From Massilia sp. Root418 (GTDB taxonomy: Bacteria; Pseudomonadota; Gammaproteobacteria; Burkholderiales; Burkholderiaceae_D), in assembly GCF_001425265.1 (NCBI RefSeq), contig NZ_LMEC01000022.1:124001-188000 (forward strand): DNA of 64,000 nt. Direction: 5' to 3'. Shown one piece after another: positions 10,554 through 31,343 of this stretch. Both the position numbers and the translations under genes were made by a program. The notes under the pieces were generated by a model. It worked only from the letters and a program-made list of their open reading frames with translations. It searched no databases and was not told where the DNA came from. How positions within the stretch are numbered: position 1 is the stretch's first letter; every line of letters begins with the position of its first letter.

Positions 10554-11657
10554 CTAGCTGACCGCCGGCTCCAGCAAGGTCAAGGTCTGCCGCTCCGCGT
10601 CCAGCGTGGCCCGCACCCCCATGGGGATGGTGAACTGGTGCCGGATGTGCCCGAACGAGTAGCCGGCCACGGCGGTCTGCTCCAGCGGCAGCAAATGCTG
10701 GTCCACGGTTTCGTTCAGGGTGAGCGAGATGTCGTCGTCCTGGTTCTCGCAGTTCTCAAAAATGCCCAGCATTACGCCGGCCGTGTTCTTCAAGCCCTGG
10801 CTCAGCTGCAGCTGCATCAGCATGCGGTCAACGCGGTAGGGCGCTTCGTTCACTTCTTCCAGGAACAGGATGCTGCCCTTGATGTCGGCGGCATACGGCG
10901 TGCCTTCCAGCGCGCTGACCAGGCACAGGTTGCCACCGGTGAGGTGGCCTGTGCACTGGCCCCCGTGCACGGTACGCACGGTGTACTGCGGCTCGGCCAC
11001 CGCCTTGTGGGCGTTGTCCTGCGACATGGAAATGGTATAGCGTTCCTGCGGCGCCATCAGCACATTTTGCAGCTGCGTCACCGCATACTCGGAAAAGGTG
11101 GACGACGCCACCGGCCCGTGGAAGGTGACCAGCCCGGCGTGCTTGTTGATGGCCAGGTGCAGGGCGGTGATGTCGGAATAGCCGATCAGCACCTTGGGAT
11201 TGGCGCGGATCAGCGCATAGTCGATGTGGGGCAGCAGCGAGATGCAGCCGGAGCCGCCGCGGATGGCCCAGATGGCGTTCACCTGCGGGTCGGCGAACAT
11301 GCCGTGCAAGTCCTCCAGGCGCTGCGCCACGGTGCCGCCGTAATTGCCGTGCACCGCGTTGATGTGCTCGCCCAGCTTGACCCGCAGGCCGAGCGATTCG
11401 ATGTTGCGCACCGCTTTGTCGATGGCCTTGGGACTGGTGTGGCCACCGGGCGCGATGATGCCGACCAGGTCGCCGGGCTCCAGGCGCGGCGGCTTGGTCA
11501 GTTGCGGCTTGCTCATGGCTTGGTTTCCTTGCGATGGGGCGCGCCTGGGACGGCCGGCCGCCGCAGCGGGGAGCGCTGCGGCGGCCAGGGCAGCGCCGGT
11601 GGCCGAAGCCACCAGGCCGCCGAAGCGGCGCCGGCTGAGGGGAGAGGTCGTCGGCAC
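10554..11657 (-). CDS. LD-carboxypeptidase (peptidase S66), Tat-type leader
   Basis: S66-family enzyme, related to LdcA, which removes the terminal D-Ala from murein tetrapeptides; MccF-type members cleave other amide bonds. Visible catalytic features are the nucleophile Ser in IGYSDIT, the Glu region FLEEVNEAPYRVDRML and the His of FGHIRHQF. The GTG at 11657 lies 10 bases after the TonB receptor stop and gives 367 residues beginning with a twin-arginine leader: SRRRF at residues 8-12, an Ala-rich hydrophobic core, then AAAAG. A second start, ATG at 11516, has an AAGGAA ribosome site and would give a 320-residue cytoplasmic enzyme like E. coli LdcA. I list the exported form; both may be made. 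Likely co-transcribed with the receptor. Confidence 0.85.
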   Translation of the reverse strand: MPTTSPLSRRRFGGLVASATGAALAAAALPAAAAGRPRRAPSQGNQAMSKPQLTKPPRLEPGDLVGIIAPGGHTSPKAIDKAVRNIESLGLRVKLGEHINAVHGNYGGTVAQRLEDLHGMFADPQVNAIWAIRGGSGCISLLPHIDYALIRANPKVLIGYSDITALHLAINKHAGLVTFHGPVASSTFSEYAVTQLQNVLMAPQERYTISMSQDNAHKAVAEPQYTVRTVHGGQCTGHLTGGNLCLVSALEGTPYAADIKGSILFLEEVNEAPYRVDRMLMQLQLSQGLKNTAGVMLGIFENCENQDDDISLTLNETVDQHLLPLEQTAVAGYSFGHIRHQFTIPMGVRATLDAERQTLTLLEPAVS

Positions 11658-11667
11658 CGCTATCCGC

Positions 11668-14427
11668 TTACATGAACTTGTACTTGAGGTTGACGGACAG
11701 CGAACGGCCGCGCGCATCGGCCACGCGCGGATCCCAGCCTGCACCCACCACTTCATCCACGTTGTGCGCGGTGAACGGCGGGGTCTTGTCGAACAGGTTC
11801 AGGATGCCCACCGTGATGGTGGCGTTCTTGTAGCCGGTGTAGGTGCCCGTCAGGTCATACTTCTCGTAGTGCTTCACGCGCGGCACGAAGCCGGCCGGCG
11901 GCGTGCCCTTGCCGCCGTTGGGCACCTGGTCGTTGTAGCCGGTGGAGAAGTTCTGCGTAAACAGCGCGCTCCAGTCGCCCTTCGCCACGCTGATGCTGGC
12001 GTTGTGCTTCCAGCGCAGGTAGATGTCGCGGCTGTTGAAGATGCCCACGTTTTCCTTGTACGGCTGGCCTTCGAATTCGGCGAACTTGAAGCTCTTCATG
12101 TAGGTGCCGTCCAGCTTGGCCACCCACTTGTAGCCTTCCACTTTGCCGTCCGCCTGCAGGCCCAGGTCGGCGCCGCGGGTTTTCAGGCCGGCCGCGTTGA
12201 TCCAGCCCGCTTCCACGTGGTCGATGACGCCGGTGGCGGGATTGCGCACGATGTACTCGGGCAGGAACTGCCAGTTGGCCAGCACCACTTGCGGGGTGCG
12301 GTTCAGGATACGGTCCTGGATGTTGATGGCCCAGAAGTCCAACGAGGCCGAGAAGCCGCGCACCGGCTCCACCACGATGCCCAGCGTGCCCTGCTTGGAG
12401 GTTTCAGGCTTCAGGCTGGGATTGCCGCCGGTGTTGTAAGCCAGGCGCGGAATGGCGCAGAACAGCGGGTTGCCCGGATTCTTGGCGCAGCCTTCCTGGT
12501 CGATGATGCCGTTCGGCAGTTCCTGCGACAGGCGGCCCGCGTACAGCTGGGTGAAGCTCGGCGCCAGGAAGCCCTTGTTGGCCGAACCGCGCAGCACCAG
12601 GTTGCTGGTCGGCTGGTAGCGGAACGACACTTTCGGGTTGGTGGTGGCGCCGATCACGCTGTAATCGTCGCGGCGCACGGCCAGCTGCACTTCCAGGTCT
12701 TTCAGCACCGGCACCAGCAGTTCGGCGTAGACCGCGCGCACGTCGCGCGAGGCGCCGCTCAGGGACGCGTTACCCGGCGACAGCAGGATCTTGGTGGCGT
12801 CCACGTCTTGCGCGAAGCCATAGGTTTCCTTGCGCAGGTCGAAGCCCGCCGCCATCGACACGGCGCCGGCCGGCAGCTGCATCACTTCGCCGGAGACCGA
12901 GCCGTCCAGCTGGGTCATGGTGGTCTTGCCGTGCTGGAAGGCGCCGATGTACTTGGTCGACTCGATCAGCTGCATCGCTTCGGCGGTCTGGCTCTGGCCC
13001 GGCGCCAGCCAGGGATTGATCTTGCCGCTGCCCAGGGCCGCGTAGATCTTGTCGGTGTAGCCGTAGCCGTCCACCAGGGCGGTCTTGGTGGTGCTTTCCG
13101 CGCGCGACAGGCCCAGCTTGTAGTCCCACTTGCCCATCAGCAGGCCTTCGGCGGCCAGCAGCAGGCGGTAGTTCTCGGTCACGTTGTTCTGCGTGCGGTC
13201 GCCCCACGGCGTGCTGCGCCACTTGTAGATGATGGGCTTGGTCTTGTCGTAGCTCGGGATGTACTGCGACAGGTCCTGGTAGTAGGGGCCGTTGACCGGG
13301 TAGGCGGCGCCGTTGGCCAGGCTGGTGGAAATCTGCACCGGCGTGAAGGAGGCGGTCGCCTCGGTGCGCGAGCCGAGCAGCTCGAAGAACACCTTGTGGT
13401 TGTCGTTGATCTTCAGGGTGCCGCGCGAGACGGCGTTGGTGCGCTCGACCGGGAAGCTGATCACATAATCGGCGCCGTAGTCGTAGGCGCAGGAATACTT
13501 GGAACGGGTGACGGCGGTGACGTCCTTCCACAGGTCGCTCTGGTACTGCGACATGCCGGGGATGGTGTCGCACTTGCCTTGCAGGCTCAGCAGGCCGGCC
13601 TGCAGGTAGGTGGTGCTGTCGCCCGGCATTTTGAAACCGGTGCCCAGCGCGGTGCCGGCGCCGGTGAGAATGTTGGCGAACGGGGTGCCGGTGGTGTCCG
13701 GCGACAGGCCGCGCGCAGGCTGGAAGCCGTTGGCGAAGTCGCGCTGCCTGGAGCTGAGCTTGTCGTTGTTGTCGTGCGTGACGGAGGCCATGATGTTCCA
13801 GCCGTCGCTTTGCAGGTCGCCCAGGCCGCCCAGCGCGGACACGCGGCGGTTCATGCCGCCGCCGTGTTCGGTGCCGTTCAGCGTGGTGGACAGTTCCAGG
13901 CCTTTATAGTCGGTCTTCAGGATGAAGTTGACCACGCCGCCGATGGCGTCGGTGCCGTAGATGGCGGAAGCGCCGTCCTTCAGGATTTCCACGCGGGCGA
14001 TGGCGCCCAGCGGGATGGAGTTCAGGTCCACCGCCTTGCCGGAGGCGCCGTGGTTGCCCACGCGGCGGCCGTTCAGCAGCACCAGCGTGGCGTTCGGGCC
14101 CAGGCCGCGCAGGGAGGCGAAGGAGGCGCCGCCGGACACGCGGTCGGCGTCGGCGCCGAACACGTTATTACCTGAGGTCATATTGTCGGCGCCGGTGCCG
14201 CTGGCGGAAATGGTGCGCAGCAGCTGCTCGGTGTCGGTGATGCCGGCCTTTTCGATCGCGTCGAAGGTGACCACCTGCACCGGCAGCGCGCCTTCCTTGG
14301 CCACGCGCTTGATGCTGGAGCCGGTGATTTCCACCCGCTGGATTTGCTGCGGGGCAGCCTGCTGAGCCATTACGGGACTTACTACACCTATCAGCGCAAT
14401 CATCTGCGCGAGCTTTTTAACCTTCAC
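11668..14427 (-). CDS. TonB-dependent outer-membrane receptor
   Basis: A 919-residue TonB-dependent transporter. The GTG at 14427 is preceded by AGGGAGAG and starts a signal peptide (VKVKKLAQMIALIGVVSPVMAQQ). The TonB box is probably VEITGSSIKR, the plug domain spans about residues 35-165 (GLGPNATLVLLNGRRVGNHG, DGASAIYGTDAIGGVVNFI), and the barrel fills the rest, ending LSVNLKYKFM. The receptor is of the large class that imports peptides, sugars or nucleosides rather than classical siderophores. Its neighbours are a peptide-binding protein upstream and an LD-carboxypeptidase directly downstream, suggesting peptides, possibly murein peptides. The substrate is inferred, not shown. Confidence 0.92.
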   Translation of the reverse strand: MKVKKLAQMIALIGVVSPVMAQQAAPQQIQRVEITGSSIKRVAKEGALPVQVVTFDAIEKAGITDTEQLLRTISASGTGADNMTSGNNVFGADADRVSGGASFASLRGLGPNATLVLLNGRRVGNHGASGKAVDLNSIPLGAIARVEILKDGASAIYGTDAIGGVVNFILKTDYKGLELSTTLNGTEHGGGMNRRVSALGGLGDLQSDGWNIMASVTHDNNDKLSSRQRDFANGFQPARGLSPDTTGTPFANILTGAGTALGTGFKMPGDSTTYLQAGLLSLQGKCDTIPGMSQYQSDLWKDVTAVTRSKYSCAYDYGADYVISFPVERTNAVSRGTLKINDNHKVFFELLGSRTEATASFTPVQISTSLANGAAYPVNGPYYQDLSQYIPSYDKTKPIIYKWRSTPWGDRTQNNVTENYRLLLAAEGLLMGKWDYKLGLSRAESTTKTALVDGYGYTDKIYAALGSGKINPWLAPGQSQTAEAMQLIESTKYIGAFQHGKTTMTQLDGSVSGEVMQLPAGAVSMAAGFDLRKETYGFAQDVDATKILLSPGNASLSGASRDVRAVYAELLVPVLKDLEVQLAVRRDDYSVIGATTNPKVSFRYQPTSNLVLRGSANKGFLAPSFTQLYAGRLSQELPNGIIDQEGCAKNPGNPLFCAIPRLAYNTGGNPSLKPETSKQGTLGIVVEPVRGFSASLDFWAINIQDRILNRTPQVVLANWQFLPEYIVRNPATGVIDHVEAGWINAAGLKTRGADLGLQADGKVEGYKWVAKLDGTYMKSFKFAEFEGQPYKENVGIFNSRDIYLRWKHNASISVAKGDWSALFTQNFSTGYNDQVPNGGKGTPPAGFVPRVKHYEKYDLTGTYTGYKNATITVGILNLFDKTPPFTAHNVDEVVGAGWDPRVADARGRSLSVNLKYKFM

Positions 14428-14587
14428 CGTACTCTCCCTTGATTTGAACGAACTCTTGACTGCCCGGCGCCGGGCACGGCGTCTTGCGCACCGCATGAAA
14501 ATTCAGAGTAGCGCTTTGCACTCCGCGCTATCCAATGAAAATAGCTCACTTGGCCATAACTTTTAGGAATGATAATAAGAAATTCAA

Positions 14588-16444
14588 TCAGGGCGCCATT
14601 TTAGTGAGCTGATTCCGCTCCGCAACGTCCAAATCAAGATAACGCCAGTTTGTGAACTCCACGGGGTGGCGGATGTAGTTTTTTAGCCACGGTTGCCGGA
14701 TATCGGCGGAAATCGGGTGGGTCAGCAGCACCCACGGGTTGTAGGCGTGGATCAGCTGGTTCATTTCCCGGTACAGCACGCGGCGCTCCGGCGTATCGCC
14801 CAGCTGGCGGGCCTGCTCGTAGCGGCGGTTGTATTCCGGCAGGTTGAAGCGCGCGTAATTGGCGCGGCCACTGTTGGGGCCGTACAACAATTGCAAGTAG
14901 TTGTCACCGTCCGGGAAGTCGGCAATCCAGTTGGTCTCGAACATCATCACCTTGCCCAGGCGCGAAGCCTTGATGATCTCGGTCTTCTTGTCGCTCTTGA
15001 ACTGCACCTGCAGGCCGATGGCGTTCAGGCCCTTGCGCCACAGCTCGTCGCGCAGGCGGCCCACCATGGACGGCTCGGAATGCATGGTCAGCAGCAGCGG
15101 CTGGCCGTTGGGCAGGGTGCGGTAGCCGTTCTTGCCGACGCGGTAGCCGTAGCGGTCCAGCAGGGCCTTCGCCAGCGCCGGGTTGTAGCTGACCGGGCTG
15201 CGGTAGGCCGGGTCGTAGCCCAGCACATTGGGCGGCAGCGGCGACTGCGCGGGCAGGGCCAGGCCTTTTTTCAGCAGGGCCACGTCCTCCGGGCTGTTGT
15301 AGCTGAGCGCGATGGCGCGCCGCAGCGCCACCTTGTCCTTGCTGTAGCCGCCGATGAGCGGGTCTTCCATGTTCATCCACATGTAGTAGGTCTGCAGCAC
15401 GGGGAAGGGCGACAGTTGCATGCCTTTTTTCGCCAGCTCGGGCTTGAGCTCGGGCGCGGCGGTGTCGGCGCGCAGCACCATGTCCTTCATGGACTCCGGC
15501 ACCTGTTCGATGTAGTCGAACTCGCCGTTCAGGAAGCCCAGCATGCGCGACTGGTATTCCTCCATGATCTTCACCTCGATGCGGTCCACCAGCGGCAGGC
15601 GCTTGCCTTCCAGCGCGGCGGCGGCGGCGCGGTATTCGGGCGCGGCGCCGGCGCCATGAAATACGGTGGGGCGGAAATCCGGGTTGGCTTGCAGGGTGAT
15701 CTTGTCGCTGCGTTTCCACTCGCCCACCATGAAGGGGCCGGTGCCGACCGGGTGGTTGCCCATCTGGCTGCCGTAGGCTTCGGCTACTTCGCGCGCGACC
15801 ACGCCGGTGGCGGGCATGGCCAGGTAGTAGAGGAAGTTGGGGTCCGGAGCACTGAGGCGGATGCGCAGCGTGTATTTGTCCAGCGCCTGCAGGCCGGGGA
15901 TGGCGGTGGCGTGGCTGAATTTGGTCTTGAGCGCCGCGTCGCCGGCGAGCTTGCCTTCCAGCAGGAACAGCCAGGGGGATTTCAGTGCGGGGTCGTACAG
16001 GCGCTTGAGGCTGTAGACGTAGTCTTCGGCGGTGACTTCGCGCTGCTTGCCCTTGAAGGCGGGATCGGGCGTGAAATGGATGCCGGGAGTGAGCTGGAAA
16101 GTGTAGGTCAGGCCGGCCTGGTCCACTTGCGGCATGGCGCGCAGGGTGTTGGGCTGCAGCGTGACCGGGCGCGCCAGGTAGTCGTAGCGCAGCAGCGGGT
16201 CGTACAGGTTTTCCAGCAGGGCCAGGGTGGCGATGTCGGAAGCGACGGCCGGGTCCAGGCCAGTTTCGCCTGTGGAGAGGAAAGCGTGCAGGACTTTCGG
16301 GGCGGCGGCCGGCGCGATGACCGGTGCGTCGGCGGCGGCGGCGTGCCCTGCGGCCAGCGCCAGCGACAGCGCAGCGGCGCCCAGCGCGCGCTGCCACGGC
16401 CTTGCCAGGTTAGCGCCCAAGTTAGCGGCCAGGTTAGCTGCCAT
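14588..16444 (-). CDS. ABC transporter substrate-binding protein, family 5
   Basis: A 618-residue periplasmic solute-binding protein of the DppA/OppA (SBP_bac_5) family. The ATG at 16444 has a GAGGAAAG ribosome site and gives a signal peptide with a curious triple (A/G)ANL repeat before the hydrophobic core LGAAALSLALAAGHAAAADA. The mature protein has the family layout (GLDPAVASDIATLALLENLYDPL near the N-terminus, AEDYVYSLKRLYDP, PVGTGPFMVGEW). No ABC permease or ATPase is adjacent, so it either serves a transporter encoded elsewhere or delivers ligand as an orphan. It precedes the TonB receptor on the same strand by 160 bases. Confidence 0.9.
   Translation of the reverse strand: MAANLAANLGANLARPWQRALGAAALSLALAAGHAAAADAPVIAPAAAPKVLHAFLSTGETGLDPAVASDIATLALLENLYDPLLRYDYLARPVTLQPNTLRAMPQVDQAGLTYTFQLTPGIHFTPDPAFKGKQREVTAEDYVYSLKRLYDPALKSPWLFLLEGKLAGDAALKTKFSHATAIPGLQALDKYTLRIRLSAPDPNFLYYLAMPATGVVAREVAEAYGSQMGNHPVGTGPFMVGEWKRSDKITLQANPDFRPTVFHGAGAAPEYRAAAAALEGKRLPLVDRIEVKIMEEYQSRMLGFLNGEFDYIEQVPESMKDMVLRADTAAPELKPELAKKGMQLSPFPVLQTYYMWMNMEDPLIGGYSKDKVALRRAIALSYNSPEDVALLKKGLALPAQSPLPPNVLGYDPAYRSPVSYNPALAKALLDRYGYRVGKNGYRTLPNGQPLLLTMHSEPSMVGRLRDELWRKGLNAIGLQVQFKSDKKTEIIKASRLGKVMMFETNWIADFPDGDNYLQLLYGPNSGRANYARFNLPEYNRRYEQARQLGDTPERRVLYREMNQLIHAYNPWVLLTHPISADIRQPWLKNYIRHPVEFTNWRYLDLDVAERNQLTKMAP
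16407..16442 (-). repeat. Three tandem 12-bp units in a signal peptide
   Basis: Three near-identical 12-bp units (AGGTTAGCGCCC and two variants on the plus strand) immediately follow the start codon of the family-5 binding protein and encode a repeated (A/G)ANL tetrapeptide at its N-terminus. Confidence 0.75.
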
Positions 16445-16565
16445 GTTCTTCTTTCCTCGCTCTATCAAAACCGCCACAGGATACGGCATCGGGCCGCTGC
16501 CTGACCATGAAATCCGGCCCGCTGCGTATAACTTTTTTGCATGTGCGGCCAGCATTCTTTCATCG

Positions 16566-16637: not shown

Positions 16638-17882
16638 ATGTCGCTCAATTACATCTGGTCTGGCTTCTTCCTGGTCGGCTTCGCGGCTGCCTTCGCGCAG
16701 TGGCTGTTCCTGGGCGATAACGAAATTTTCAAAAAGGTTATCGACGGCACCTTCGACTCCGCCAGGATGGGCGTAATGGACATTGCGCTGCCGCTGGCCG
16801 GCGTGATGACCTTGTGGCTGGGCATTATGAACATCGGCGAAAAAGCCGGCGTGGTGGGCTGGCTGGCCAAAGTGATCGCGCCCTTCTTCTCGCGCATCTT
16901 CCCCGAGGTGCCGAAAGACCACCCGGCCAACGGCCACATGGTGATGAATTTTTCCGCCAACCTGCTGGGCCTGGACAACGCGGCCACGCCCTTCGGCCTG
17001 AAGGCGATGGAAAGCCTGCAGACGCTCAATCCGAGCAAGGACGAGCCCACCAACGCGCAGATCATGTTCCTGGTACTGCACACCTCGGGCCTGACCCTGA
17101 TTCCGCTGGCCATCATGGCGCAGCGCTCCATCCTCGGTGCGGCCGATCCGGCCGACATCTTCATTCCCTGCATGATTGCGACCTATGTGGCCACGGTGGC
17201 GGGCATCATTGCGGTGTCCATCCGCCAGCGCATCAACCTGTTCGACAGCGTGGTGCTGTCCTGGCTGGGCGGCATGACCTCGGCCATCGTGGCGCTGATC
17301 TGGTACTTCACGCAATACCTGACCAAGGCCGAGATCGCCACCGTATCCAAGGTGGTGAGCAACGCCGTGCTGATCGGGGTGATCACGATCTTCATCGTCG
17401 GCGCGCTGCGCAAGAAGGTGAACGTGTACGAAGCCTTCATCGAAGGCGCCAAGGGCGGCATCCAGACGTCGCTCACCGTGATCCCCTACCTGGTGGGCAT
17501 GCTGGTGGCCATCAGCGTGATCCGCAACGCGGGCGTGTTCGGCTTTGTCATGAACGGCTTCAACTGGCTCTTCAGCGGCATCGGCATCAACACCGACTTC
17601 GTGCCCGCGCTGCCCACCGCGCTGATGAAGCCGCTTAGCGGCAGCGGCTCGAAAGCCATGATGATCGACGCCATGAACACCTACGGGGTGGACTCCTTCG
17701 TCGGCCGCCTGGCCTGCGTGTTCCAGGGCTCGGCCGACACCACCTTCTACATCGTGGCGCTGTACTTCGGCTCGGTCGGCATCCGCAAGACGCGTTATGC
17801 TATCTCCTGCGGCCTGATCGCCGACCTGGCCGGCGTGCTCACCGCCATCGGCGTGTCTTACGTGTTCTTCCATCAAGGATAA
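16638..17882 (+). CDS. Nucleoside-recognition (Gate) membrane protein, SpmA-SpmB fusion type
   Basis: A 414-residue polytopic membrane protein in which two nucleoside-recognition (Gate) units are fused; each corresponds to one of the spore maturation proteins SpmA and SpmB of Bacillus. Key segments are MNFSANLLGLDNAATPFGLKAM around residue 105 and the second-half motif ALPTALMKPLSGSGSKAMM around 330. In non-sporulating proteobacteria the job of this family is unknown, but its conserved placement with dacB-type genes (it ends 2 bases before the next start) hints at a role in envelope or peptidoglycan metabolism. Confidence 0.9.
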   Translation: MSLNYIWSGFFLVGFAAAFAQWLFLGDNEIFKKVIDGTFDSARMGVMDIALPLAGVMTLWLGIMNIGEKAGVVGWLAKVIAPFFSRIFPEVPKDHPANGHMVMNFSANLLGLDNAATPFGLKAMESLQTLNPSKDEPTNAQIMFLVLHTSGLTLIPLAIMAQRSILGAADPADIFIPCMIATYVATVAGIIAVSIRQRINLFDSVVLSWLGGMTSAIVALIWYFTQYLTKAEIATVSKVVSNAVLIGVITIFIVGALRKKVNVYEAFIEGAKGGIQTSLTVIPYLVGMLVAISVIRNAGVFGFVMNGFNWLFSGIGINTDFVPALPTALMKPLSGSGSKAMMIDAMNTYGVDSFVGRLACVFQGSADTTFYIVALYFGSVGIRKTRYAISCGLIADLAGVLTAIGVSYVFFHQG

Positions 17883-19585: not shown

Positions 19586-19857
19586 GCCCGGCCTGGCGGC
19601 AACTATCCCTGCATTATGCGGGTTCCAACTGGCGGCTCGGCTTACTCCGCCTCGCGGCACCCAGCCGTCGGGCGCCGTGACGATATCAGCCGGCTGATAG
19701 CCGCGCAATGTGTCGTCGATAGCAGAACGGAATGGCGTTTCGGGGTCCGCCACAAGCCAACTCAGCTTGTTTCAGCCACGTTTTGGCAAAGCCGCGCTTG
19801 CCACCGGCTAGCGACTGGGCTACCTTCAGGCTAATCCTACACTTCAAGGAGCCCATG
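19586..19857. other. 272-base gap, no recognised gene
   Basis: No assignable gene. On the minus strand two adjacent frames read protein-like stretches (AGGKRGFAKTWLKQAEL, then VADPETPFRSAIDDTLRG and onward to WVPRGG) that would join by one frameshift near 19755, suggesting a possible gene remnant. On the plus strand nothing resembles an MqsR-type toxin. An AAGGAG ribosome site at 19846-19851 serves the next gene. Confidence 0.4.
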
Positions 19858-20088
19858 ATGAAATGCCCGGTTTGCGGCGGCCCTGGACTGGTACGCGATA
19901 CGAGAAACCTGCAGTACAACTACCACGGGCACACCGCCACCATTCCCGATGTGACGGGTGAGTTCTGCAATGCTTGCGGGGAAGTGACACTGGACGCGGC
20001 GGAAGCCAAGCGCTACAGCGAAGCGGTGGACGCGTTCGTGGCCCACGTGGACGCCGCCGAGGACGCGCGCACTACAGCACGCGCGTAA
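19858..20088 (+). CDS. Short MqsA/YgiT-type zinc-finger protein
   Basis: A 76-residue protein matching only the N-terminal zinc-binding half of MqsA antitoxins: CPVCGGPG at residues 3-10 and CNACGEVTLD near 41-50, with the intervening VTGEF. The ATG at 19858 is 6 bases from AAGGAG; the preceding ATG at 19855 is too close. The C-terminal helix-turn-helix that binds DNA in MqsA is absent: the frame ends in DAAEDARTTARA and runs 17 bases into the convergent dipeptidase gene. No toxin gene is next to it. It is either a decayed antitoxin or a free-standing YgiT-type finger protein. Confidence 0.7.
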   Translation: MKCPVCGGPGLVRDTRNLQYNYHGHTATIPDVTGEFCNACGEVTLDAAEAKRYSEAVDAFVAHVDAAEDARTTARA

Positions 20089-23529: not shown

Positions 23530-23621
23530 AGTGCCAGAGTGTAAAGTGAAATGCGGCCGGGATTTAATGAAACCTTGGCCGCACACCATGCCCTAAGGTT
23601 ATAGCCAGCCTGCGGCCATGC

Positions 23622-25316
23622 TTACAACTGCGGCGATACCCGCGCGCTTTCGTTGCCCAGGCGGTCCACCGCGCTCACCACCACGGCGCGGGCCGCCACG
23701 CCCGCCTCGTCCGCCAGGGTGACTTCGCCGCGCGTGGCGGGGGCCACCGTGAAACGCCACTCCTCGCCGTAGCGCGCCCAGATGGCGAACTGGGTGGCGC
23801 TCTTGCCCGCGCTCAGTTTCAGGTCCAGCCCGGCCGTGCCGCGCCGCGCCCCCACCGTCGGCGCGCCCGGCGTGTCCGATCCCAGCCATGGCGACGGCGG
23901 GATCAGCGCGGCGCTCTGGTAGCTGACCGACTTGAGCTGGTCGCTGATGCCTTTGCGGTTCTGCATCAGCGCGGCAATGCTGAAATGCACATGGCCGATG
24001 CTGTTGACGCCCCGTCCGGCGCGGCTGCGCGTGACGCCGATCTGCTTGACGATTTCCTCCGGCTCGAACGATTTCACGCTGCCGTCGATGCGGCTGGTGT
24101 ACAGGCCCGGCCACACGTGGCGGCCGCGCGTGTTTTCGCGCAGCCAGTAGTCGAGCAGCACGTCGAACGCTTGCGGCGGCGGCGAAATGGCCCAGTACAG
24201 CTGCGGCGCCAGGTAGTCCAGCCAGCCGTTTTTCAGCCACAGTTCGGCGTCCGCGTACAGCTTGTCGTACTGGCTGAAGCCGAGGATGCCGGGCGGGCGG
24301 CGGTCCGGGCGGCCGATGCCGAAGGGACTGATGCCGAAGCGCACCCACGCTTTTTCGCGGTGGATGCCGGTGTACATGGCTTCGATCAGCTGGTTGACAT
24401 TTTGGCGGCGCCAGGAGGCGCGGTCGAGCTGGCCCCCGCCGGCCAGATAGCGTTGCCAGGCGGGCTGGTCGGGAAAGTCCAGCTCGGGACGCGGCGCCCC
24501 GCTGGCTGGGGCGTTGCCGGCTTCCAGCGCGGCCGCTTCGCCCGCCACGCCCGGCGCTTCGATCGGGTAGGGATAGAAATAGTCGTCGATGTGCACGCCG
24601 TCGATGTCGTAGCGCTTCACCACGTCCAGGATCACGTCCAGCGTGTGCCGGGACGCTTCCGCTTCGCCCGGGTCCATCCACTGGTAGCGGCCATAGGTTT
24701 TCACCGTCTGCGGCTTGGTCATGGAAATATGGTCGCGCGAGTTGGGGGACTTGGCGGTGGCGTGGCGCGCGCGGTAGGGGTTGAACCAGGCGTGCAGTTC
24801 CAGGCCGCGCGCATGGGCCTGGTCGATCCAGAACTTGAGCGGGTCGTACATGGGCGAGGGCGCCTTGCCCTGCTGGCCGGTCAGGTACTCGGTCCACGGT
24901 TCCAGCTCGGAGGGATAGATCGCGTCCGCGCTCGGGCGTACCTGCAGCACGATGGCGTTCAAATTGAGCGCCTTGGCGCGGTCCAGGATGGCGATGGCTT
25001 CGGACTGCTGCCTGGCCACCGGCAGGCCGGCGCGGCTGGGCCAGTCGATATTGGCCACGGTGGACACCCAGGCGGCGCGGAACTCGCGCGGCGCCGGCGG
25101 CGGCACGGGACCGGTCAGGCTGGACGGCGGCGCCGTCCCCGCGCCGGGTTCGGTGGCGGGCCCGGCGCCGGGCGCGGACGGCATCACCGGGCCGCTGCCC
25201 GCCGCGGGCGTGACCGGCGTGCTGGAGCAGGCGCCCAGGAAGGCCGCCACTGCGGCGGCGGCGGCGGCACTGGCGGCAGCGGCCAGGGTGTGCCGCTTGT
25301 TCGGGTCAAAAGCCAA
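23622..25316 (-). CDS. Family-10-like glycoside hydrolase lipoprotein (DigH/YngK type)
   Basis: A 564-residue GHL10 (DUF187) enzyme. The lipobox FLGAC puts Cys30 at the mature N-terminus, followed by a long Pro/Gly/Ala linker (32-75) and the barrel, with REFRAAWVSTVANIDWPS, LNAIVLQVRPSADAIY, HAWFNPYRAR and the probable catalytic acidic strand DIDGVHIDDYFYPYP. E. coli DigH, of this family, is an outer-membrane lipoprotein that cleaves denuded murein glycan strands; the surrounding amidase, kinase, AmpG-like and MurQ genes fit that role. A fibronectin-like C-terminal domain is likely (ending VDRLGNESARVSPQL). Confidence 0.88.
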   Translation of the reverse strand: MAFDPNKRHTLAAAASAAAAAAVAAFLGACSSTPVTPAAGSGPVMPSAPGAGPATEPGAGTAPPSSLTGPVPPPAPREFRAAWVSTVANIDWPSRAGLPVARQQSEAIAILDRAKALNLNAIVLQVRPSADAIYPSELEPWTEYLTGQQGKAPSPMYDPLKFWIDQAHARGLELHAWFNPYRARHATAKSPNSRDHISMTKPQTVKTYGRYQWMDPGEAEASRHTLDVILDVVKRYDIDGVHIDDYFYPYPIEAPGVAGEAAALEAGNAPASGAPRPELDFPDQPAWQRYLAGGGQLDRASWRRQNVNQLIEAMYTGIHREKAWVRFGISPFGIGRPDRRPPGILGFSQYDKLYADAELWLKNGWLDYLAPQLYWAISPPPQAFDVLLDYWLRENTRGRHVWPGLYTSRIDGSVKSFEPEEIVKQIGVTRSRAGRGVNSIGHVHFSIAALMQNRKGISDQLKSVSYQSAALIPPSPWLGSDTPGAPTVGARRGTAGLDLKLSAGKSATQFAIWARYGEEWRFTVAPATRGEVTLADEAGVAARAVVVSAVDRLGNESARVSPQL

Positions 25317-25360: not shown

Positions 25361-26626
25361 TCATTCCCGGCCGAAGGCCGGATCCACCTTCACCAGTGCG
25401 GTCATGATGAAGCCCGGTATGGTGGCCAGGCAGACCCACATGAAGAAGTGCTGGTAGCCCAGCATCTGCTGTATCCAGCCGCTGGCCATTTGCGGCAGCA
25501 TCATGCCCAGCGCCATGAAGCCGGTGCAGATGGCGTAATGCGCGGTCTTGTGCGGGCCGTCCGCCACCATGATCATGTACAGCATGTAGGAGGTGAAACC
25601 GAAACCGTAGCCGAACTGCTCGGCCGCCATCAGCGCGGAAATCAGGTAGATGTTCTCGGGCAAGGCGCTGGACAGGTAGACAAACACCAGGTCGGGCACG
25701 TGCACCGCGAACGCCATCGGCCACAGGCAGCGCTTGAGGCCGAAGCGCGAGATCACCACGCCGCCCGCCAGGCCGCCCAGGGTGAGCGCGATAATGCCGA
25801 TGGTGCCGTACACCAGCCCCACTTCCTGGTTGCTCAGGCCCAGGCCGCCCTTGGCGATCGGATCCAGCAGGAAGGGCACGGCCAGCTTCAGCAGCTGCGC
25901 TTCGCCCAGGCGGAACAGCAGCAGGAAGCCCAGCGTGACGGCGATGCCCTTCTTGCGGAAGAAGGAGGCGAAGGTGGCGAAGAATTCGCGGAACAGGTCG
26001 CCACCGGCGGGCGCGCGCACGTCGGCGGCGGGCCTGGGCAGCAGGAAGAAATGGTAGGCGAACAGCACGCCGAACAGGCCGGCCAGGATGAACAGCACGA
26101 TGGACCAGGCCACGTGCGGGTCGCCCAGCTGGTCGGTCAGCTGGCCGGCCAGGTAAAGCAGGCCGCCCTGGCCGGCGATCATGGCCAGCCGGTAGAAGGT
26201 GGAGCGCACCCCGACAAAGGCGGCCTGCTGCTGCTGGCGCAAGCCCAGCATGTAGAAGCCGTCGGCGGCAATATCGTGGGTGGCGGAACTGAAGGCCATC
26301 AGCCACAGCACGGCCAGGCTGGCGCGGAAGAAGTCCGGCAGATGCATGGTGAGCGCCACCCCGGCCAGCGCGGCGCCGATCACCAGCTGCAGCGCCACGA
26401 TCCACATGCGCTTGGTGCCCAGCAACTCCACCACGGGCGACCACAGCGGCTTGATCACCCACGGCAGGTACAGCCAGCCGGTGTAGAGCGCGATATCGGT
26501 ATTGGAAATGCCGGTGTTCTTGTACATCGCCACCGACAGCGTCATCACTACGACATACGGAATGCCCTGGCCGAAATACAAACTGGGGATCCACCACCAG
26601 GGGCTACGTTGAAGCGCGTCTTTCAT
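25361..26626 (-). CDS. AmpG-like muropeptide permease (MFS)
   Basis: A 421-residue major-facilitator protein of the AmpG/PAT type, with about 12 membrane helices. The N-terminus reads SLYFGQGIPYVVV...ALYTGWLYLPWVIKPLWSPVVE, the AmpG hallmark, and SSATHDIAADGFYM follows in helix 4. AmpG carries anhydro-muropeptides into the cytoplasm. The ATG at 26626 has an AAGGACGG ribosome site and lies 20 bases after the murQ stop, so murQ and this gene are one transcript. It is shorter than E. coli AmpG (491 residues), lacking the two extra C-terminal helices. Confidence 0.88.
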   Translation of the reverse strand: MKDALQRSPWWWIPSLYFGQGIPYVVVMTLSVAMYKNTGISNTDIALYTGWLYLPWVIKPLWSPVVELLGTKRMWIVALQLVIGAALAGVALTMHLPDFFRASLAVLWLMAFSSATHDIAADGFYMLGLRQQQQAAFVGVRSTFYRLAMIAGQGGLLYLAGQLTDQLGDPHVAWSIVLFILAGLFGVLFAYHFFLLPRPAADVRAPAGGDLFREFFATFASFFRKKGIAVTLGFLLLFRLGEAQLLKLAVPFLLDPIAKGGLGLSNQEVGLVYGTIGIIALTLGGLAGGVVISRFGLKRCLWPMAFAVHVPDLVFVYLSSALPENIYLISALMAAEQFGYGFGFTSYMLYMIMVADGPHKTAHYAICTGFMALGMMLPQMASGWIQQMLGYQHFFMWVCLATIPGFIMTALVKVDPAFGRE

Positions 26627-26646: not shown

Positions 26647-27534
26647 TTATTTCTGCAGCGCCGCCCTCACACTGCCTTGGGCCTGTTCCAGCGCGGCGCG
26701 CGCCTGCTCCACGCTCTGCCGGTTGAGCAGCGCGACGACAGCGACCTTGACGTGGAAGTTGCACTGCTCCAGCGTGGCGCGGGCGGCGGCTTCATCCACG
26801 CCGGTGGCGTGCATGGTCAGGCGCACGGAGCGCTGCACCAGCTTGGCGTTGGTGGGCTTCAAGTCTACCATCAGGTTGCCATACACCTTGTGCAAACGCA
26901 CCATGAGCGCGCTGGAAATGGTATTGAGCGCGATCTTCTGCGAAGTGCCCGCCTTCAGGCGGGTACTGCCGGAGATGACTTCTTCCCCGGTGTCCAGCGT
27001 GATGCCGATTTCGGCTTCCAGCGCCACCGGCGCGCCGGTATTGTTGGCCAGGCCGACTGTCAGCGCGCCGGCTTCGCGCGCCGCGTGCAGCGCGCCCAGC
27101 ACGTAGGGCGTGCCGCCCGAGGCCGCCAGCAGGAAGACCACGTCGTTGGGGCCGGGCGCCAACGCCAGCAGGTCGGCCGCGCCTTGTGCGCGGTCGTCCT
27201 CGGCGCCTTCCACCGCCTGGAACATGGCGCCGTTGCCGCCGGCCAGCAGGGCCAGCGCGCGTTCGTTGGGCCAGGAAAAGGTGGGGTTGAGTTCCACGCT
27301 GTCGAGCACGCCGAGCCGGCCCGAGGTGCCGGCGCCGGCGTAGATCAGGCGTCCGCCGGCCTGCATGCGCGGCACGGAGGCCGCCACGGCGGCGGCGATG
27401 GTCGGCGCGGCCGCCTGCACGGCGCGCACGGCGTTGAACTGGTCGTCGATGAAGGCGGACACCAGCTCGGTGTCCGGGTATTGGTCCAGCTGCGCGTGCT
27501 GCCGGCTAGGTGTTTCGGTTTTTAACATCGTCAT
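26647..27534 (-). CDS. murQ: N-acetylmuramic acid 6-phosphate etherase
   Basis: A 295-residue SIS-domain lyase that converts MurNAc-6-phosphate into GlcNAc-6-phosphate and D-lactate in the cytoplasm. The SIS motif GRLIYAGAGTSGRLGVLD and the second signature EVISGSTRLKAGTSQKIALN are complete, as are the catalytic Glu near VEGAEDD and the C-terminal UBA-like part. Starts at 27534 or 27528 (MT-MLKT); neither has a good ribosome site. First gene of the group murQ - ampG-like - digH-like - kinase - amiD-like, with a candidate operator 22 bases upstream. Confidence 0.95.
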   Translation of the reverse strand: MTMLKTETPSRQHAQLDQYPDTELVSAFIDDQFNAVRAVQAAAPTIAAAVAASVPRMQAGGRLIYAGAGTSGRLGVLDSVELNPTFSWPNERALALLAGGNGAMFQAVEGAEDDRAQGAADLLALAPGPNDVVFLLAASGGTPYVLGALHAAREAGALTVGLANNTGAPVALEAEIGITLDTGEEVISGSTRLKAGTSQKIALNTISSALMVRLHKVYGNLMVDLKPTNAKLVQRSVRLTMHATGVDEAAARATLEQCNFHVKVAVVALLNRQSVEQARAALEQAQGSVRAALQK

Positions 27535-27555
27535 CTGTCGGTAGTGATACGATGA

Positions 27556-27571
27556 GACCAGTGTAATACCA
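27556..27571. promoter_or_regulatory. Candidate GntR-type operator upstream of murQ
   Basis: GACCAGTGTAATACCA on the plus strand shares the core AGTGTAATA and flanking C's with the site at 28435 in front of the GntR gene. The pair suggests that the regulator controls both murQ and itself. TTGGTAT-type sequences are known for NagR/YvoA-family sites. Confidence 0.5.
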
Positions 27572-27673
27572 AACTGCACCCAAGCTGCAGGCCCCGTCCA
27601 TGAAAGCTCGATGCGCGGGCATGCCTAAAAGTTATGCTGCGCCATGCTGCGCGATGCTGCGGGATGCTGCAGG

Positions 27674-28417
27674 TTACGCAGGCGCCCGGCGCATTTCGGC
27701 CACGAAGTCGTAGTGGTCGCTGCGGCAATACGAGTGGGTCAGCTCCACCGCTTCGCCCGATTCCAGGTAGGCGATGCGGGTAATGAACAGCACGGCCTGG
27801 CCTTCCGGCACGTCCAGCTGGCGCGCCAGTTCGCCCGAGGCGTTCATGGCGCGGATGTGCTGCAGCGCGCGCGACGGCGCCTTGCCGGACGCGTCCAGGA
27901 ATTCATACAGGGAATCGCCGATCGCCTCCGGGCGCGGCACCACGCTTTGCGGCAGCACGCTGACCTCGTAGGCCATCACCACGTCGTCCGCCAGCCGCAG
28001 GCGCTCCAGGCGCGCCACTTTGCTGTTGGGTGAAAGGGCCAGGCTCATCTGCTCGTCCGCGCTGGCGCTGACGATGGCGCGCTTGAGCCAGCGCGAACCG
28101 GGCTTGTAGCCGCGCTGCTGCAGCTGCTCGGAAAAACTGGTGAGGTTGGACAGGGGCTGTTCGATGCGCGGGGCAATGTAGTTGCCGGAACCGCGGCGGC
28201 GCACCACGAGCCCCTGCTCCACCAGCTGGTCGATGGCTTTGCGGGCGGTAACGCGCGAGACGTTCAACAATTCGGACAACGTGCGCTCGGACGGCAGCGC
28301 CTGGTCGACCTGGTAGCGCCCATTGCGCACATCGTCGCTCAACTTGCGTGCAATCTGCATATACAGCGGCGAATTGTCTTTTGCATCGGCTTGAAATTCA
28401 ACGCTGGTCTGGCTCAT
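27674..28417 (-). CDS. GntR/HutC-family transcriptional regulator (NagR/YvoA type)
   Basis: A 247-residue regulator: an N-terminal winged helix (residues 14-82; LPSERTLSELLNVSRVTARKAIDQL) and a UTRA effector domain (about 100-240; LERLRLADDVVMAYEVS, ITRIAYLESGEAVELTHSYCRSDHYDF). NagR/YvoA members sense GlcNAc-6-phosphate or glucosamine-6-phosphate, which is the product of the MurQ reaction, so it plausibly represses murQ and the genes behind it. It lies immediately upstream of murQ on the same strand, 139 bases away. Confidence 0.9.
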   Translation of the reverse strand: MSQTSVEFQADAKDNSPLYMQIARKLSDDVRNGRYQVDQALPSERTLSELLNVSRVTARKAIDQLVEQGLVVRRRGSGNYIAPRIEQPLSNLTSFSEQLQQRGYKPGSRWLKRAIVSASADEQMSLALSPNSKVARLERLRLADDVVMAYEVSVLPQSVVPRPEAIGDSLYEFLDASGKAPSRALQHIRAMNASGELARQLDVPEGQAVLFITRIAYLESGEAVELTHSYCRSDHYDFVAEMRRAPA

Positions 28418-28450: not shown

Positions 28451-28598
28451 ATGGCCAATTTGCGCTCATTTTTGGTTGCATGAAAATATACTGGCATCGC
28501 ATAGCGTCAAGTTATGTGCGGATGAAACGATTTCATTAGGCGCCGCCACGCCCGGCCCGTATGCTCATTCCGACAACAACTCGACAAGGAAACAGGCG

Positions 28599-29963
28599 AT
28601 GAAACCGGGTATGCGCGTACTGCTGGGATGGGCCTTGGTGGGCGGCGGACTGATGCATGCCGTGGCCGGCGATGCGGCGGCGCCTTCAGCAGCATCGGCG
28701 GCGGCCACGGCGCAGCTGGACCGCGAACTGGCCGCCGTCGTCAACGACCCGCAGCATCCGCTGTCCGGGCTGTCCGTGCTGGCCATCCGCGACGGCAAGG
28801 TGGCATATCAGCAACAGTTCGGCCTGCGCCGCATCGACACCGCCGGCACCGGCAGCACCGCCCCGGTGACGCCCGCCACCATGTTCCGCATCGCGTCCAT
28901 CTCCAAGATGATGACCACCTTCGGCCTGATGAAACTGGTGGAGGAAGGCAAGCTGGCGCTGGACGCGGATGCCGGCAGCTATCTGGGCTTCCCGCTGCGC
29001 AACCCGCACTTTCCCGGGCAGGCCATCACCCTGCGCCACCTGCTCACCCACACCTCGTCGCTGCGCGACGACGCCGGCTATTCCTGGGGCGCGGACACGG
29101 CGCTGCGCGACGTGCTGCTGCCCGGCGGCGGCAAATACGGCAGCGGCGCCATGTGGGCGCAGGGCAGCAGCGCCGCGCCCGGCGCCTACTTCACCTACTG
29201 CAACCTGAACTGGGGCGTGATCGGCACCATCATGGAGCGCGCGAGCGGCGAACGGTTCGACCGCCTGATGAAGCGCCTGCTGCTGGCGCCGATGGGCTTG
29301 CGGGGCGGCTACAACACCGCCGAGTTCTCGCCCGCCGAAGTGGCGGACACGGCCACCTTGTACCGCAAGCGCACCACCGACACGGAAGTGTGGAACCCGG
29401 CCGGCCCCTGGATCGCGCAGGTGGACAACTTTGGCGTGGCCGCGCCCGCCGCGCCGGCCGGCATCGGCGGCTACGCCGTTGGCAGCAACGCGACGCTGTT
29501 CAGTCCCACCGGCGGCCTGCGCATCTCGGCGCCGGACATGGGCAAGATCATGCTGATGCTGATCAACCAGGGCCGGCACGAAGGCAGGCAAATCCTGAAG
29601 CCGGACACGATCAGGTTGATGTTCAGCGAACAATGGACCAACAATGGGAAGAACGGCGACACCTTGCGCGGCCTGTACCACAGCTGGGGCCTGGGCGCGC
29701 AGCGCTTCCCGGACGTGCCCGGCAGCGGCAACCGCCTGGTGCAGGGCGGCGGCTTCAGCGCAGTAGGCCACCTGGGCGAAGCCTACGGCCTGGTGTCCAC
29801 CTTTGCGGTGGACCTGGAACGGCGCAACGGCCTGGTATCGCTGATCGGCGGCTTCGGCACCGACCCGGAAAGCTATCCGGGCCGGTACTCCGCGCTGGTG
29901 CGTTCCGAGGAGCTGATCCTGACGGCGCTGTACCGGCGCGCCGTGCTGGGCAGGACCGACTGA
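28599..29963 (+). CDS. Serine beta-lactamase-like protein (YfeW/PBP4B type)
   Basis: A 454-residue exported hydrolase of the class C beta-lactamase/EstB/DD-peptidase family. The ATG at 28599 is preceded by AAGGAAA and starts a signal peptide (LGWALVGGGLMHAVAG). The catalytic SxxK is Ser100-Lys103 (SISK) and the YxN motif is Tyr200-Cys-Asn202. The third motif is probably GGGFSAVGHLG, where HxG replaces KTG as in family members. E. coli yfeW, a penicillin-binding DD-carboxypeptidase of this fold, lies next to murQP, so the location beside the murQ regulator supports a murein-peptide role. Confidence 0.85.
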   Translation: MKPGMRVLLGWALVGGGLMHAVAGDAAAPSAASAAATAQLDRELAAVVNDPQHPLSGLSVLAIRDGKVAYQQQFGLRRIDTAGTGSTAPVTPATMFRIASISKMMTTFGLMKLVEEGKLALDADAGSYLGFPLRNPHFPGQAITLRHLLTHTSSLRDDAGYSWGADTALRDVLLPGGGKYGSGAMWAQGSSAAPGAYFTYCNLNWGVIGTIMERASGERFDRLMKRLLLAPMGLRGGYNTAEFSPAEVADTATLYRKRTTDTEVWNPAGPWIAQVDNFGVAAPAAPAGIGGYAVGSNATLFSPTGGLRISAPDMGKIMLMLINQGRHEGRQILKPDTIRLMFSEQWTNNGKNGDTLRGLYHSWGLGAQRFPDVPGSGNRLVQGGGFSAVGHLGEAYGLVSTFAVDLERRNGLVSLIGGFGTDPESYPGRYSALVRSEELILTALYRRAVLGRTD

Positions 29964-30074
29964 GGCGCCGGTGTTGGACATCACCCAAGGTTATGGCTTG
30001 CGCATGACGATTCATTGGAAAGAAGCAGGGCCTGCCGCCACACTCTGAAACATCTTCATTAAACGGTTCTCCAG

Positions 30075-31343
30075 ATGCAGCACGGTACACAGCAGGACGC
30101 ACAGCAGGTAGTGGTCATCGGCGGCGGCGTGGTGGGTCTGGCATCGGCCTGGTGGCTGCTGGAGGCCGGCTACCGCGTGACGCTGCTGGAACGTGCGCCC
30201 ACCGTGGGCAGCGCGTCGAGCTACCGCAACGGCGGCCAGCTGAGCTACCGCTATGTGGCGCCGCTGGCGGACGCCGGCGTGCCGCTGAAGGCGCTGCAAT
30301 GGATGTTTCAGGAGGATGGCCCGCTGCGCTTCCGTCCCGAAGCCGACCTGCGCCAGTGGCGCTGGCTGGCCAGCTTCCTGGCCAACTGCAACGCCGCCAG
30401 CAACCACCGCACCACCGCCAAGCTGCTGGAATTGGGCGAGCTGAGCCGCAACGCCATGGCGCAGCTGGAACTGGTGCTGCCGCTGTCGGAATTCGCGTGG
30501 CGCGACGCCGGCAAGCTGGTGGTGTACCGCTCCCGAAAAGTGTTCGACGCCGCCGTGGCGCGGCCGGACGCAGAAGGCAACCGCCAGGTGCTGACGGCGG
30601 CCGACACGGCGCGCATGGAACCGGCGCTGGCCGAACTGAGTCCGCAGCTGGCGGGCGGCATCTACAACAAGGGCGAAGCGGTGGCGGACTGCCATGTGTT
30701 CTGCCTGGCGCTGGAACAACGGCTGCGCGCGCATCCGCGCTTCCAGGGCGTGCTCCACGCCGAGGCGCGCGGCATCTTCGCCGAACACGGCCGCATCACC
30801 GCCATCGACACCAGCGAGGGATGGATCTCGGCGGACCAGTTCGTGCTGGCTGCCGGCATCCAGAGCCGCGACCTGGCCGCCAGCGCCGGCATCTATCTGC
30901 CGCTCTACCCGCTGAAAGGCTACAGCCTGACCGCGCCCATCCGCGCCCAGGACTGCGCGCCGGAAATCAGCGTTACCGACTTCGAACGCAAGGTGCTGTA
31001 CGCGCGCATCGGCGACAGCCTGCGCATCGCGGCCATGGTGGACATGGTGGGCGAGGACACCAGCCTGGACGGCGGCCGGGTGGCGGGCCTGAAGCGCCTG
31101 GCACGCGCCGCCATGCCGACGGCAGCCGACTACAGCCGCGCCGAAGCCTGGGCCGGCCTGCGCCCCGCCACGCCCAACAGCTCGCCCATCATCGGCGCCA
31201 CGCGCTACCCGAACCTGTGGCTGAACGTCGGCCACGGCCCGCTCGGCTTCACTTTTGCCTGCGGCACCGCCGCCCTGCTGGCCGACCTGATGCGCGGCAA
31301 ATCCACCCCCTTCGCCCTCGACGGCCTGACCCTCGCCGCCTGA
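30075..31343 (+). CDS. dadA: D-amino acid dehydrogenase (DadA type)
   Basis: A 422-residue FAD-dependent DAO-fold enzyme oxidising D-amino acids, mainly D-Ala to pyruvate, at the inner membrane. The dinucleotide motif is VVVIGGGVVGLASAWWLLEAGYRV at residues 11-34; SYRNGGQLSY and the C-terminal WAGLRPATPNSSPIIGAT...NLWLNVGHGPLGFTFACG are the DadA signatures. It may process D-Ala set free by the carboxypeptidases and the D-Ala-D-Ala dipeptidase encoded upstream. The alanine racemase that often accompanies dadA is not in the window. Confidence 0.9.
   Translation: MQHGTQQDAQQVVVIGGGVVGLASAWWLLEAGYRVTLLERAPTVGSASSYRNGGQLSYRYVAPLADAGVPLKALQWMFQEDGPLRFRPEADLRQWRWLASFLANCNAASNHRTTAKLLELGELSRNAMAQLELVLPLSEFAWRDAGKLVVYRSRKVFDAAVARPDAEGNRQVLTAADTARMEPALAELSPQLAGGIYNKGEAVADCHVFCLALEQRLRAHPRFQGVLHAEARGIFAEHGRITAIDTSEGWISADQFVLAAGIQSRDLAASAGIYLPLYPLKGYSLTAPIRAQDCAPEISVTDFERKVLYARIGDSLRIAAMVDMVGEDTSLDGGRVAGLKRLARAAMPTAADYSRAEAWAGLRPATPNSSPIIGATRYPNLWLNVGHGPLGFTFACGTAALLADLMRGKSTPFALDGLTLAA

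Follow-up and report, generated by a model that had tools for sequence, protein, structure and literature searches.

Do the cell-wall genes that stand side by side in one stretch of the Massilia sp. Root418 genome work together, and if so, what controls them? The stretch (64,000 nucleotides, positions 124001-188000 of contig NZ_LMEC01000022.1, here C22; "the window") comes from a genome of 7.27 Mb in 26 contigs and contains about 15 adjoining genes with apparent roles in breakdown and reuse of the bacterial cell wall. By comparing genomes we established the gene set, its linkage, and the presence at six promoter regions of an operator that tracks lysR, a gene in the set that encodes a LysR-type regulator. 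We think it likely that this is a conserved cluster of the Massilia group for catabolism of peptidoglycan fragments, and that it is a regulon controlled by the LysR protein through that operator.

The gene set and its linkage in relatives

The original prediction for this DNA had named thirteen genes between positions 10554 and 31343 (Table 1), and every one of them is present, as judged by Pfam families: S66 (LD-carboxypeptidase), TonB receptor, SBP_bac_5 (a family-5 solute-binding protein, SBP5), S13 (DacB), M15, Amidase_2 with a peptidoglycan-binding domain, BcrAD_BadFG, GHL10, MFS/AmpG-like, GKRP_SIS (MurQ), GntR-UTRA, a beta-lactamase-fold hydrolase, and DAO (DadA). Pfam also revealed two members of the set absent from that prediction, the LysR-type regulator and a Gate-domain membrane protein. 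With corrected starts, the minus strand carries gntR, murQ-ampG-GHL10, badF-amidase-lysR-M15, SBP5, and tonB-ldcA, and the plus strand carries gate-dacB, hydrolase, and dadA. lysR is placed between the amidase and dipeptidase genes, and gate is divergent from the SBP5 gene.

Conserved co-location, which had been left to be checked in related genomes, was borne out. badF was present in 78 of 148 genomes (our own included), and we sampled about 20 kb around it at 77 loci (75, plus L064 and the window; some were shorter) from those 78 genomes. Of these loci, 72 are from the window's genus, 3 from its family, and 2 from its order; genes near the ends are undercounted. Nine genes recurred at 64-76 of the 77 loci: amidase (76), GHL10 (76), AmpG-like (74), DacB (71), Gate (70), GntR (66), MurQ (65), M15 (65), and SBP5 (64). 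DadA (34), LysR (28), TonB (23), hydrolase (15), and LdcA (15) were rarer. Most of the named relatives to which the BadF kinase led were Massilia, Pseudoduganella, and Duganella (Massilia sp. Root351 at 94% identity), and more distant ones were in metagenome-assembled genomes (MAGs) of Rhodocyclaceae and Rubrivivax. The first 29 loci keep much of the gene set, and the Massilia group also largely keeps its order; in the Rhodocyclaceae and Rubrivivax MAG loci the set is rearranged and reduced. Because much of the set recurs at 77 loci and in distant MAG loci, the clustering is more than chance.

A gene for a membrane protein lies between ampG and GHL10 in some of the Massilia loci. It matches HGSNAT_cat at L015:7137-8279 and L009:6796-8331, weakly matches DUF5009 at L028:7554-8693, and has no family in L022; calling it NagZ would be wrong. 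We take the HGSNAT_cat/DUF5009-type gene to be NagX-like. One or two in-frame stops were seen in some lysR, badF, or TonB matches (L045, L053, L055, L057), and likewise in matches of G012, G027, G038, G041, G044, G052, G068, G073, and G078.

An operator that tracks lysR

Reading the upstream regions of relatives, we noticed a composite operator of 37 bases, ATGAAW-N14-CATNNC-N5-GNNATG in its strict form; a wider pattern, ATGAAW-N14-CATNNC-N5-GNNAT(G/A), was also used in searches. Six promoter regions of the cluster carry operators, in one case with a mismatch. The wider pattern had 6 perfect matches in the window and 0 in 20 simulated Markov-1 windows; matches with one mismatch numbered 1 in the window and 2 in the 20 simulated windows. 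Across the whole genome, the strict pattern with up to one mismatch had eight matches. Five were perfect, all in the cluster, and the three with one mismatch were the badF site in the cluster and two sites elsewhere. The reversed pattern, used as a control, had 0.

The second half of the operator is an inverted repeat with T-N11-A spacing (T at 22 and A at 34, in 113 sites from lysR loci, strands counted apart). LysR-type binding sites follow a T-N11-A palindrome rule, and LysR-type activators use a distal box for recognition and a proximal one for activation. Of 72 one-sided promoters, 70 had the TTTCAT half of the operator next to the gene, as would be expected of such an activator. Base frequencies at the search positions are inflated by selection, but the unselected flanks were biased as well (position -3 was C in 67% of sites, and position 8 was T in 61%).

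The operator was found where lysR was found. We searched the 148 genomes, scoring lysR as present at E up to 1e-60. lysR was in 38 genomes and a perfect operator was in 37; the reversed control had 1 match overall. Perfect operators were present in 33 of the 38 genomes with lysR versus 4 of the 110 others (Fisher p 2.8e-23, kinship ignored). There were 82 perfect operators in all: 69 were within 20 kb of lysR (in 32 genomes), 8 were further off in lysR genomes, and 5 were in genomes that lack lysR. One of the 8, in G087, is at the TonB promoter, which there is on another contig.

We then compared the badF loci, counting sites outside genes that departed by at most one base from a somewhat broader pattern. 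Sites were present at 27 of 28 loci with lysR, at 0 of 10 loci from genomes in which lysR is elsewhere, and at 1 of 39 lysR-less loci. In the ten genomes with a moved lysR (L053-L062), sites were beside the moved gene in 10 of 10. Here lysR is in a compact locus away from badF, dadA-(hydrolase)-murQ-lysR-tonB-ldcA (hydrolase in 7 of 10; ldcA a weak fragment in L059), and murQ was also seen at the badF locus in 7 of 10. With the exact spacing of the operator, 54 perfect matches were counted at lysR loci (552 kb in total) and 0 at lysR-less loci (952 kb); twenty other spacings together had 1 match. At lysR loci, sites were most frequent at the promoters of tonB (20/20), dadA (20/24), murQ (23/28), and gntR (23/28). 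Three more distant MAG loci (L024-L026; one Rubrivivax and two Proteobacteria/Pseudomonadota) have lysR and perfect sites. In 368 other genomes of the class, outside the order, the LysR protein had no match at E 1e-75.

Because sites at the badF loci follow lysR (27/28, 0/10, and 1/39), the LysR protein is probably the dedicated regulator of the cluster, acting via the composite operator. GntR was rejected as the binder of the composite site: it is encoded at 38 of 49 lysR-less loci, and only 1 of those 38 has a site.

Table 1. Genes and putative regulatory sites of the cluster (positions in the window)
Feature	Position	Strand	Remarks
S66 LD-carboxypeptidase (LdcA-like)	10554..11657	-	Pfam; probable GTG start right after TonB stop
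TonB-dependent receptor	11668..14427	-	Pfam
Operator upstream of TonB receptor	14535..14571	+	perfect
SBP5, family-5 solute (peptide)-binding protein	14588..16444	-	Pfam
Operator, SBP5/Gate interval	16507..16563		16527-16563 (-), 1 mismatch; 16507-16543 (+), 2 mismatches (wider pattern)
Gate-domain (nucleoside recognition) membrane protein, putative transporter	16638..17882	+	two Gate stretches
DacB/PBP4-type D-Ala-D-Ala carboxypeptidase/endopeptidase	17885..19585	+	SxxK, SxN, KTG strings present
M15 D-Ala-D-Ala dipeptidase	20072..20680	-	SxHxxGxAxD and EWWH present
LysR-type regulator, proposed binder of composite operator	20683..21585	-	HTH_1 and LysR substrate domain
AmiD/AmpDh2-type amidase with peptidoglycan-binding domain	21685..22584	-	Pfam
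BadF-type kinase, proposed MurNAc and/or GlcNAc kinase	22612..23529	-	Pfam
Operator upstream of badF	23567..23603	+	final A: perfect to wider pattern, 1 mismatch to strict
GHL10 glycan-cleaving protein (DigH/Cwp19 domain family)	23622..25316	-	Pfam
AmpG-like MFS permease	25361..26626	-	Pfam
MurQ, MurNAc-6-phosphate etherase	26647..27534	-	Pfam, NCBIfam
NagQ-like direct-repeat box at murQ promoter	27555..27571	-	TGGTATTACACTGGT
Operator upstream of murQ	27600..27636	+	perfect
GntR-UTRA regulator, proposed NagQ-like	27674..28417	-	Pfam
Two overlapping operators, gntR/hydrolase interval	28480..28536		one per strand, both perfect
Beta-lactamase-fold hydrolase (AmpH/PBP4B-like)	28599..29963	+	SISK and YCN strings
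Operator upstream of dadA	29979..30015	-	perfect
DadA, D-amino-acid dehydrogenase	30075..31343	+	Pfam, NCBIfam

The proposed pathway and its parts

We suggest that LysR binds the distal T-N11-A box and the proximal TTTCAT half-box and that, on a signal (a murein peptide, or diaminopimelate [DAP] or D-alanine [D-Ala]), it would activate the TonB-LdcA, SBP5, Gate-DacB, MurQ-AmpG-GHL10, BadF-amidase-LysR-M15, hydrolase, and DadA genes. A NagQ-like GntR protein would repress murQ from a box overlapping its likely -10 until an amino-sugar phosphate appears. Going by their families, the amidase and GHL10 protein would strip and cut the glycan; DacB, LdcA, and M15 would trim the peptides; the AmpG-like and Gate proteins would import the products; the BadF kinase and MurQ would convert N-acetylmuramic acid (MurNAc) to N-acetylglucosamine (GlcNAc)-6-P and lactate; and DadA would oxidise D-Ala. 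The original prediction had proposed a joint pathway. It is coherent, and the operator indicates shared control; its single steps are still read from family names.

What LysR senses can be guessed from its relatives. The best NCBIfam model is that of E. coli LysR (110.4 bits against an equivalog cut-off of 288; 27% identity), which is encoded beside lysA. E. coli LysR senses diaminopimelate and controls lysA. Because of this kinship, it is a reasonable guess, by analogy, that the LysR protein of the cluster senses a wall-derived peptide or DAP. The TonB receptor may belong to the same circuit. A relative (E up to 1e-200) was present in 42 of the 148 genomes, 37 of the 38 with lysR and 5 of the 110 others, with identity down to 43-49% in four of the 42. 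Because of this distribution, and because the operator was at 20 of 20 tonB promoters, receptor and regulator tend to travel together. This fits a nutrient that is sensed by LysR and imported by the receptor.

The GntR regulator could add a second signal. The TGGTATTACACTGGT box at murQ overlaps the likely -10 (by eye) and resembles the direct repeats bound by NagQ, which are repeats of TGGTATT in passages of two papers (PMC4494728, PMC5343134). Of the 16 loci that show both box and operator, ten had a gap of 19-21 bases between them and six a gap of 31-32, with no intermediate values; several of these loci are close kin. Because the two classes of gap differ by about one helical turn, they suggest that murQ may be under joint, two-signal control by LysR and GntR. 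This is the weakest link of the account.

The functions that had been named for the single genes are not all equally firm. MurQ (363.8 bits against an NCBIfam cut-off of 168, with two subfamily cut-offs exceeded; 294.2 bits against TIGR00274, slightly under its cut-off of 302), DadA (421.7 against 383), and DacB, as PBP4 (205.5 against 107.8), exceeded curated cut-offs; the M15, AmpG, LdcA, AmpD, NagK, and YfeW-like assignments were below them. The M15 dipeptidase was slightly under its equivalog cut-off (152.8 against 176 bits); its motifs are present, and a signal peptide is not evident at its N-terminus (by eye). The AmpG-like permease reached 179.3 of 350 bits with curated AmpG models, and its likeness of function to AmpG stands despite this score. 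The LD-carboxypeptidase reached 183.9 of 378 bits for LdcA. Its N-terminus, with the string SRRRF, looks like a twin-arginine (Tat) export signal, whereas E. coli LdcA is cytoplasmic. The amidase was under the AmpD cut-off (79.8 of 143 bits) and near AmpDh2 (325.6 bits), a Pseudomonas enzyme. N-termini, read by eye for signal motifs, suggest that the amidase and GHL10 protein are lipoproteins and point to export of DacB, SBP5, and the hydrolase. The hydrolase, called YfeW-like in the original prediction, was far under the cut-offs for PBP4B (41 of 385 bits) and AmpH (65 of 266), and also under that of a class C beta-lactamase model (49.1 of 415); neither HTG nor KTG was found in its sequence.

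For the GHL10 protein the sole match in the PDB was Cwp19. Cwp19 is reported as a lytic transglycosylase in passages of PMC6016235, but passages of PMC12288456 present DigH as an enzyme that hydrolyses denuded glycan. Because of this difference we did not assign a chemistry to the GHL10 protein, and did not adopt the name DigH hydrolase. The sole NCBIfam match of the BadF kinase was NagK_SO3507, a GlcNAc kinase model (77.6 of 370 bits). Among solved structures it was closest to a hexokinase (2e2n, 62.1 bits), then a probable GlcNAc kinase (1zc6, 50.6), then a MurNAc/GlcNAc kinase (8zo3, 41.0). A MurNAc kinase of Tannerella is of the same Pfam family, according to parts of PMC5790795. Family evidence cannot separate MurNAc from GlcNAc as the substrate, and we rejected calling the kinase MurK outright. 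Nor do we claim that the Gate protein is a fused YjiH-YjiG, its similarity being weak (E 0.003 to YjiG, 0.38 to YjiH). The best NCBIfam models for the TonB receptor were B12, haem, and siderophore receptors, all far under cut-off, and it was under the SusC signature TIGR04057 (21.9 of 46.2 bits).

Alternative explanations and known systems

Several observations weigh against a LysR-controlled peptidoglycan cluster. The operator pattern was picked by eye in this cluster, and counts within it are thus not independent. Five lysR genomes had no perfect operator match. When one mismatch was tolerated, the pattern turned up in 130 of 148 genomes; at that level it is common background, and it was dropped as a genome-wide test. 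At lysR loci, sites were less frequent at hydrolase (9/13), badF (14/28), Gate (6/24), and SBP5 (6/23), the last two counts being low partly because the Gate query overran upstream and sites were filtered as being in gate. One genome (G062) has kept lysR and has no sites and no TonB relative; another (G058) has kept one site and has no lysR. A FastTree tree of 74 loci implied 7 changes in lysR and 6 in the sites; five supported independent pairs, 3-4 concordant and 0 discordant, were consistent in direction but did not by themselves give a significant result (sign test, p 0.125-0.25). The NagQ-like box was at murQ in 20 of the 77 loci, 18 of them with lysR, and a second perfect box (C25:94510-94526; L154:1501) is directly upstream of an erythromycin-esterase-family gene, off the pathway. 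Several gene names fall short of curated cut-offs, and AnmK and five GH3 proteins are encoded outside the cluster, elsewhere in the genome.

It is possible that the cluster serves housekeeping recycling, that is, turnover of the cell's own wall, with linkage by descent and an unrelated cargo (iron, cobalamin) for the TonB receptor; we would give this rather less than an even chance. Enzymes of these types act in ordinary recycling elsewhere, the receptor's best models fit such a cargo, and many 20-kb loci that retain the remaining genes showed no lysR, tonB, or ldcA. However, because AnmK and the GH3 proteins are encoded elsewhere, ordinary recycling extends beyond the cluster. In addition, each of the 20 lysR loci that have the receptor gene carries the operator at its promoter, and 37 of the 38 lysR genomes have a TonB relative, which adjoins lysR in the ten moved loci as well. 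Housekeeping overlaps with the LysR-controlled catabolic cluster that we favor, which does not require foreign walls, and the likelihoods of the two do not sum to one. A more specific proposal is that the regulon is dedicated to use of peptidoglycan: the receptor would import muropeptides or murein peptides of other bacteria, LysR would sense wall peptide or DAP, and LysR and the NagQ-like repressor would form an AND gate. If so, degradation, import, and catabolism would be on only when wall peptide and wall sugar are both present. We consider this proposal as a whole doubtful. The cluster may allow growth on the walls of other bacteria, as originally predicted.

Two other explanations are improbable in our judgment. 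If the operator belonged to another DNA-binding protein, its tie to lysR would reflect common descent. There are few independent changes, the pair test was not significant, and G062 has lysR and no sites. Yet the operator has a palindromic T-N11-A core like that of LysR-type sites; 37 of 38 lysR-less loci with GntR have no sites; ten genomes have sites at the moved lysR and none at the badF locus; and LysR and GntR are the only regulators among the scanned open reading frames of the cluster. The remaining explanation is that BadF and MurQ function chiefly in the use of GlcNAc or chitin, with murein secondary. The matches of the kinase (a GlcNAc kinase model, below cut-off, and among solved structures a hexokinase and a probable GlcNAc kinase) point this way, as does the presumably NagX-like gene that some Massilia loci carry between ampG and GHL10. 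So does the NagQ-like box, from what passages of PMC4494728 describe. The amidase, S66, M15, S13, and GHL10 genes, by contrast, indicate murein, and there was no chitinase among the scanned cluster proteins. In addition, MurQ is specific for MurNAc-6-P.

Gene clusters of this general type are already known; neither the regulon nor its operator was met in the literature searched. In Bacillus subtilis, MurNAc catabolism is clustered with an amidase and a glycosidase (murQ-murR-murP-amiE-nagZ-ybbC). That cluster resembles ours in this grouping, and differs by its phosphotransferase-system transporter, RpiR-type MurR, and Gram-positive enzymes. E. coli LysR, the best-model relative of our regulator, controls lysA and not a murein cluster. 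The nearest known system is the Tanf_08345-08385 operon of Tannerella forsythia: in passages of PMC5388701, PMC7670621, and PMC5790795, AmpG, a BadF-family MurNAc kinase, and MurQ are encoded in one co-regulated cluster, much as the AmpG-like, BadF-type, and MurQ genes are grouped in Massilia, and a GppX mutant grows poorly on muropeptides. Tannerella is a MurNAc auxotroph with one operon, a hybrid two-component regulator (GppX), and the MurT transporter, whereas the Massilia cluster has several operons, a LysR-type operator, GntR, TonB receptor, SBP5, Gate, DacB, M15, S66, and DadA.

Other known systems share single features. AmpR-AmpC, in passages of PMC13046382 and PMC11980594, has a LysR-type regulator tied to murein fragments and a beta-lactamase-fold gene; the Massilia cluster differs as a probable catabolic regulon of several operons, with a hydrolase far under the class C model (49.1 of 415 bits). 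The NagQ regulons share the TGGTATT direct repeats, but their cores are reported as nagA, nagB, and GlcNAc transport (passages of PMC4494728 and PMC5343134), and the main text of PMC5343134 makes no mention of murQ. The nag clusters of Caulobacter crescentus share a TonB receptor and amino-sugar genes, with GntR regulators suggested; they are GlcNAc-induced, in a species reported to be without MurQ and LdcA (parts of PMC13046382). A search by title and abstract opening, with most subscription papers outside its scope, found no LysR-controlled murein catabolic cluster, and none was found by title and abstract opening for Oxalobacteraceae with N-acetylmuramic acid. Passages on LysR-type regulation of the response to murein concerned AmpR only.

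If the proposed LysR regulon is real, it would be a compact one for cell-wall use, with a named regulator and a 37-base operator, and it would provide a candidate TonB receptor for murein fragments. The genomes that lost or moved lysR are a natural experiment. There might also be a link to Massilia that respond to necromass (PMC11843093) or are potentially predatory (PMC13364903). In parts of PMC11843093, Massilia grew more in a necromass-fed soil community than it did in the control, where its relative share also went up, and could not grow on that necromass alone; an isolate of Massilia varians is described as a potential predator in a passage of PMC13364903. Neither paper addresses this cluster.

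Two minor features lie within or beside the cluster, both seen by eye. A small open reading frame (19857-20088, plus strand) in the dacB/dipeptidase interval has two CxxC pairs and the look of an MqsA/YgiT-type zinc finger. REP-like inverted repeats (GGCGGGTTA / TAACCCGCC) are found at about 10430-10560, beside the LD-carboxypeptidase gene.

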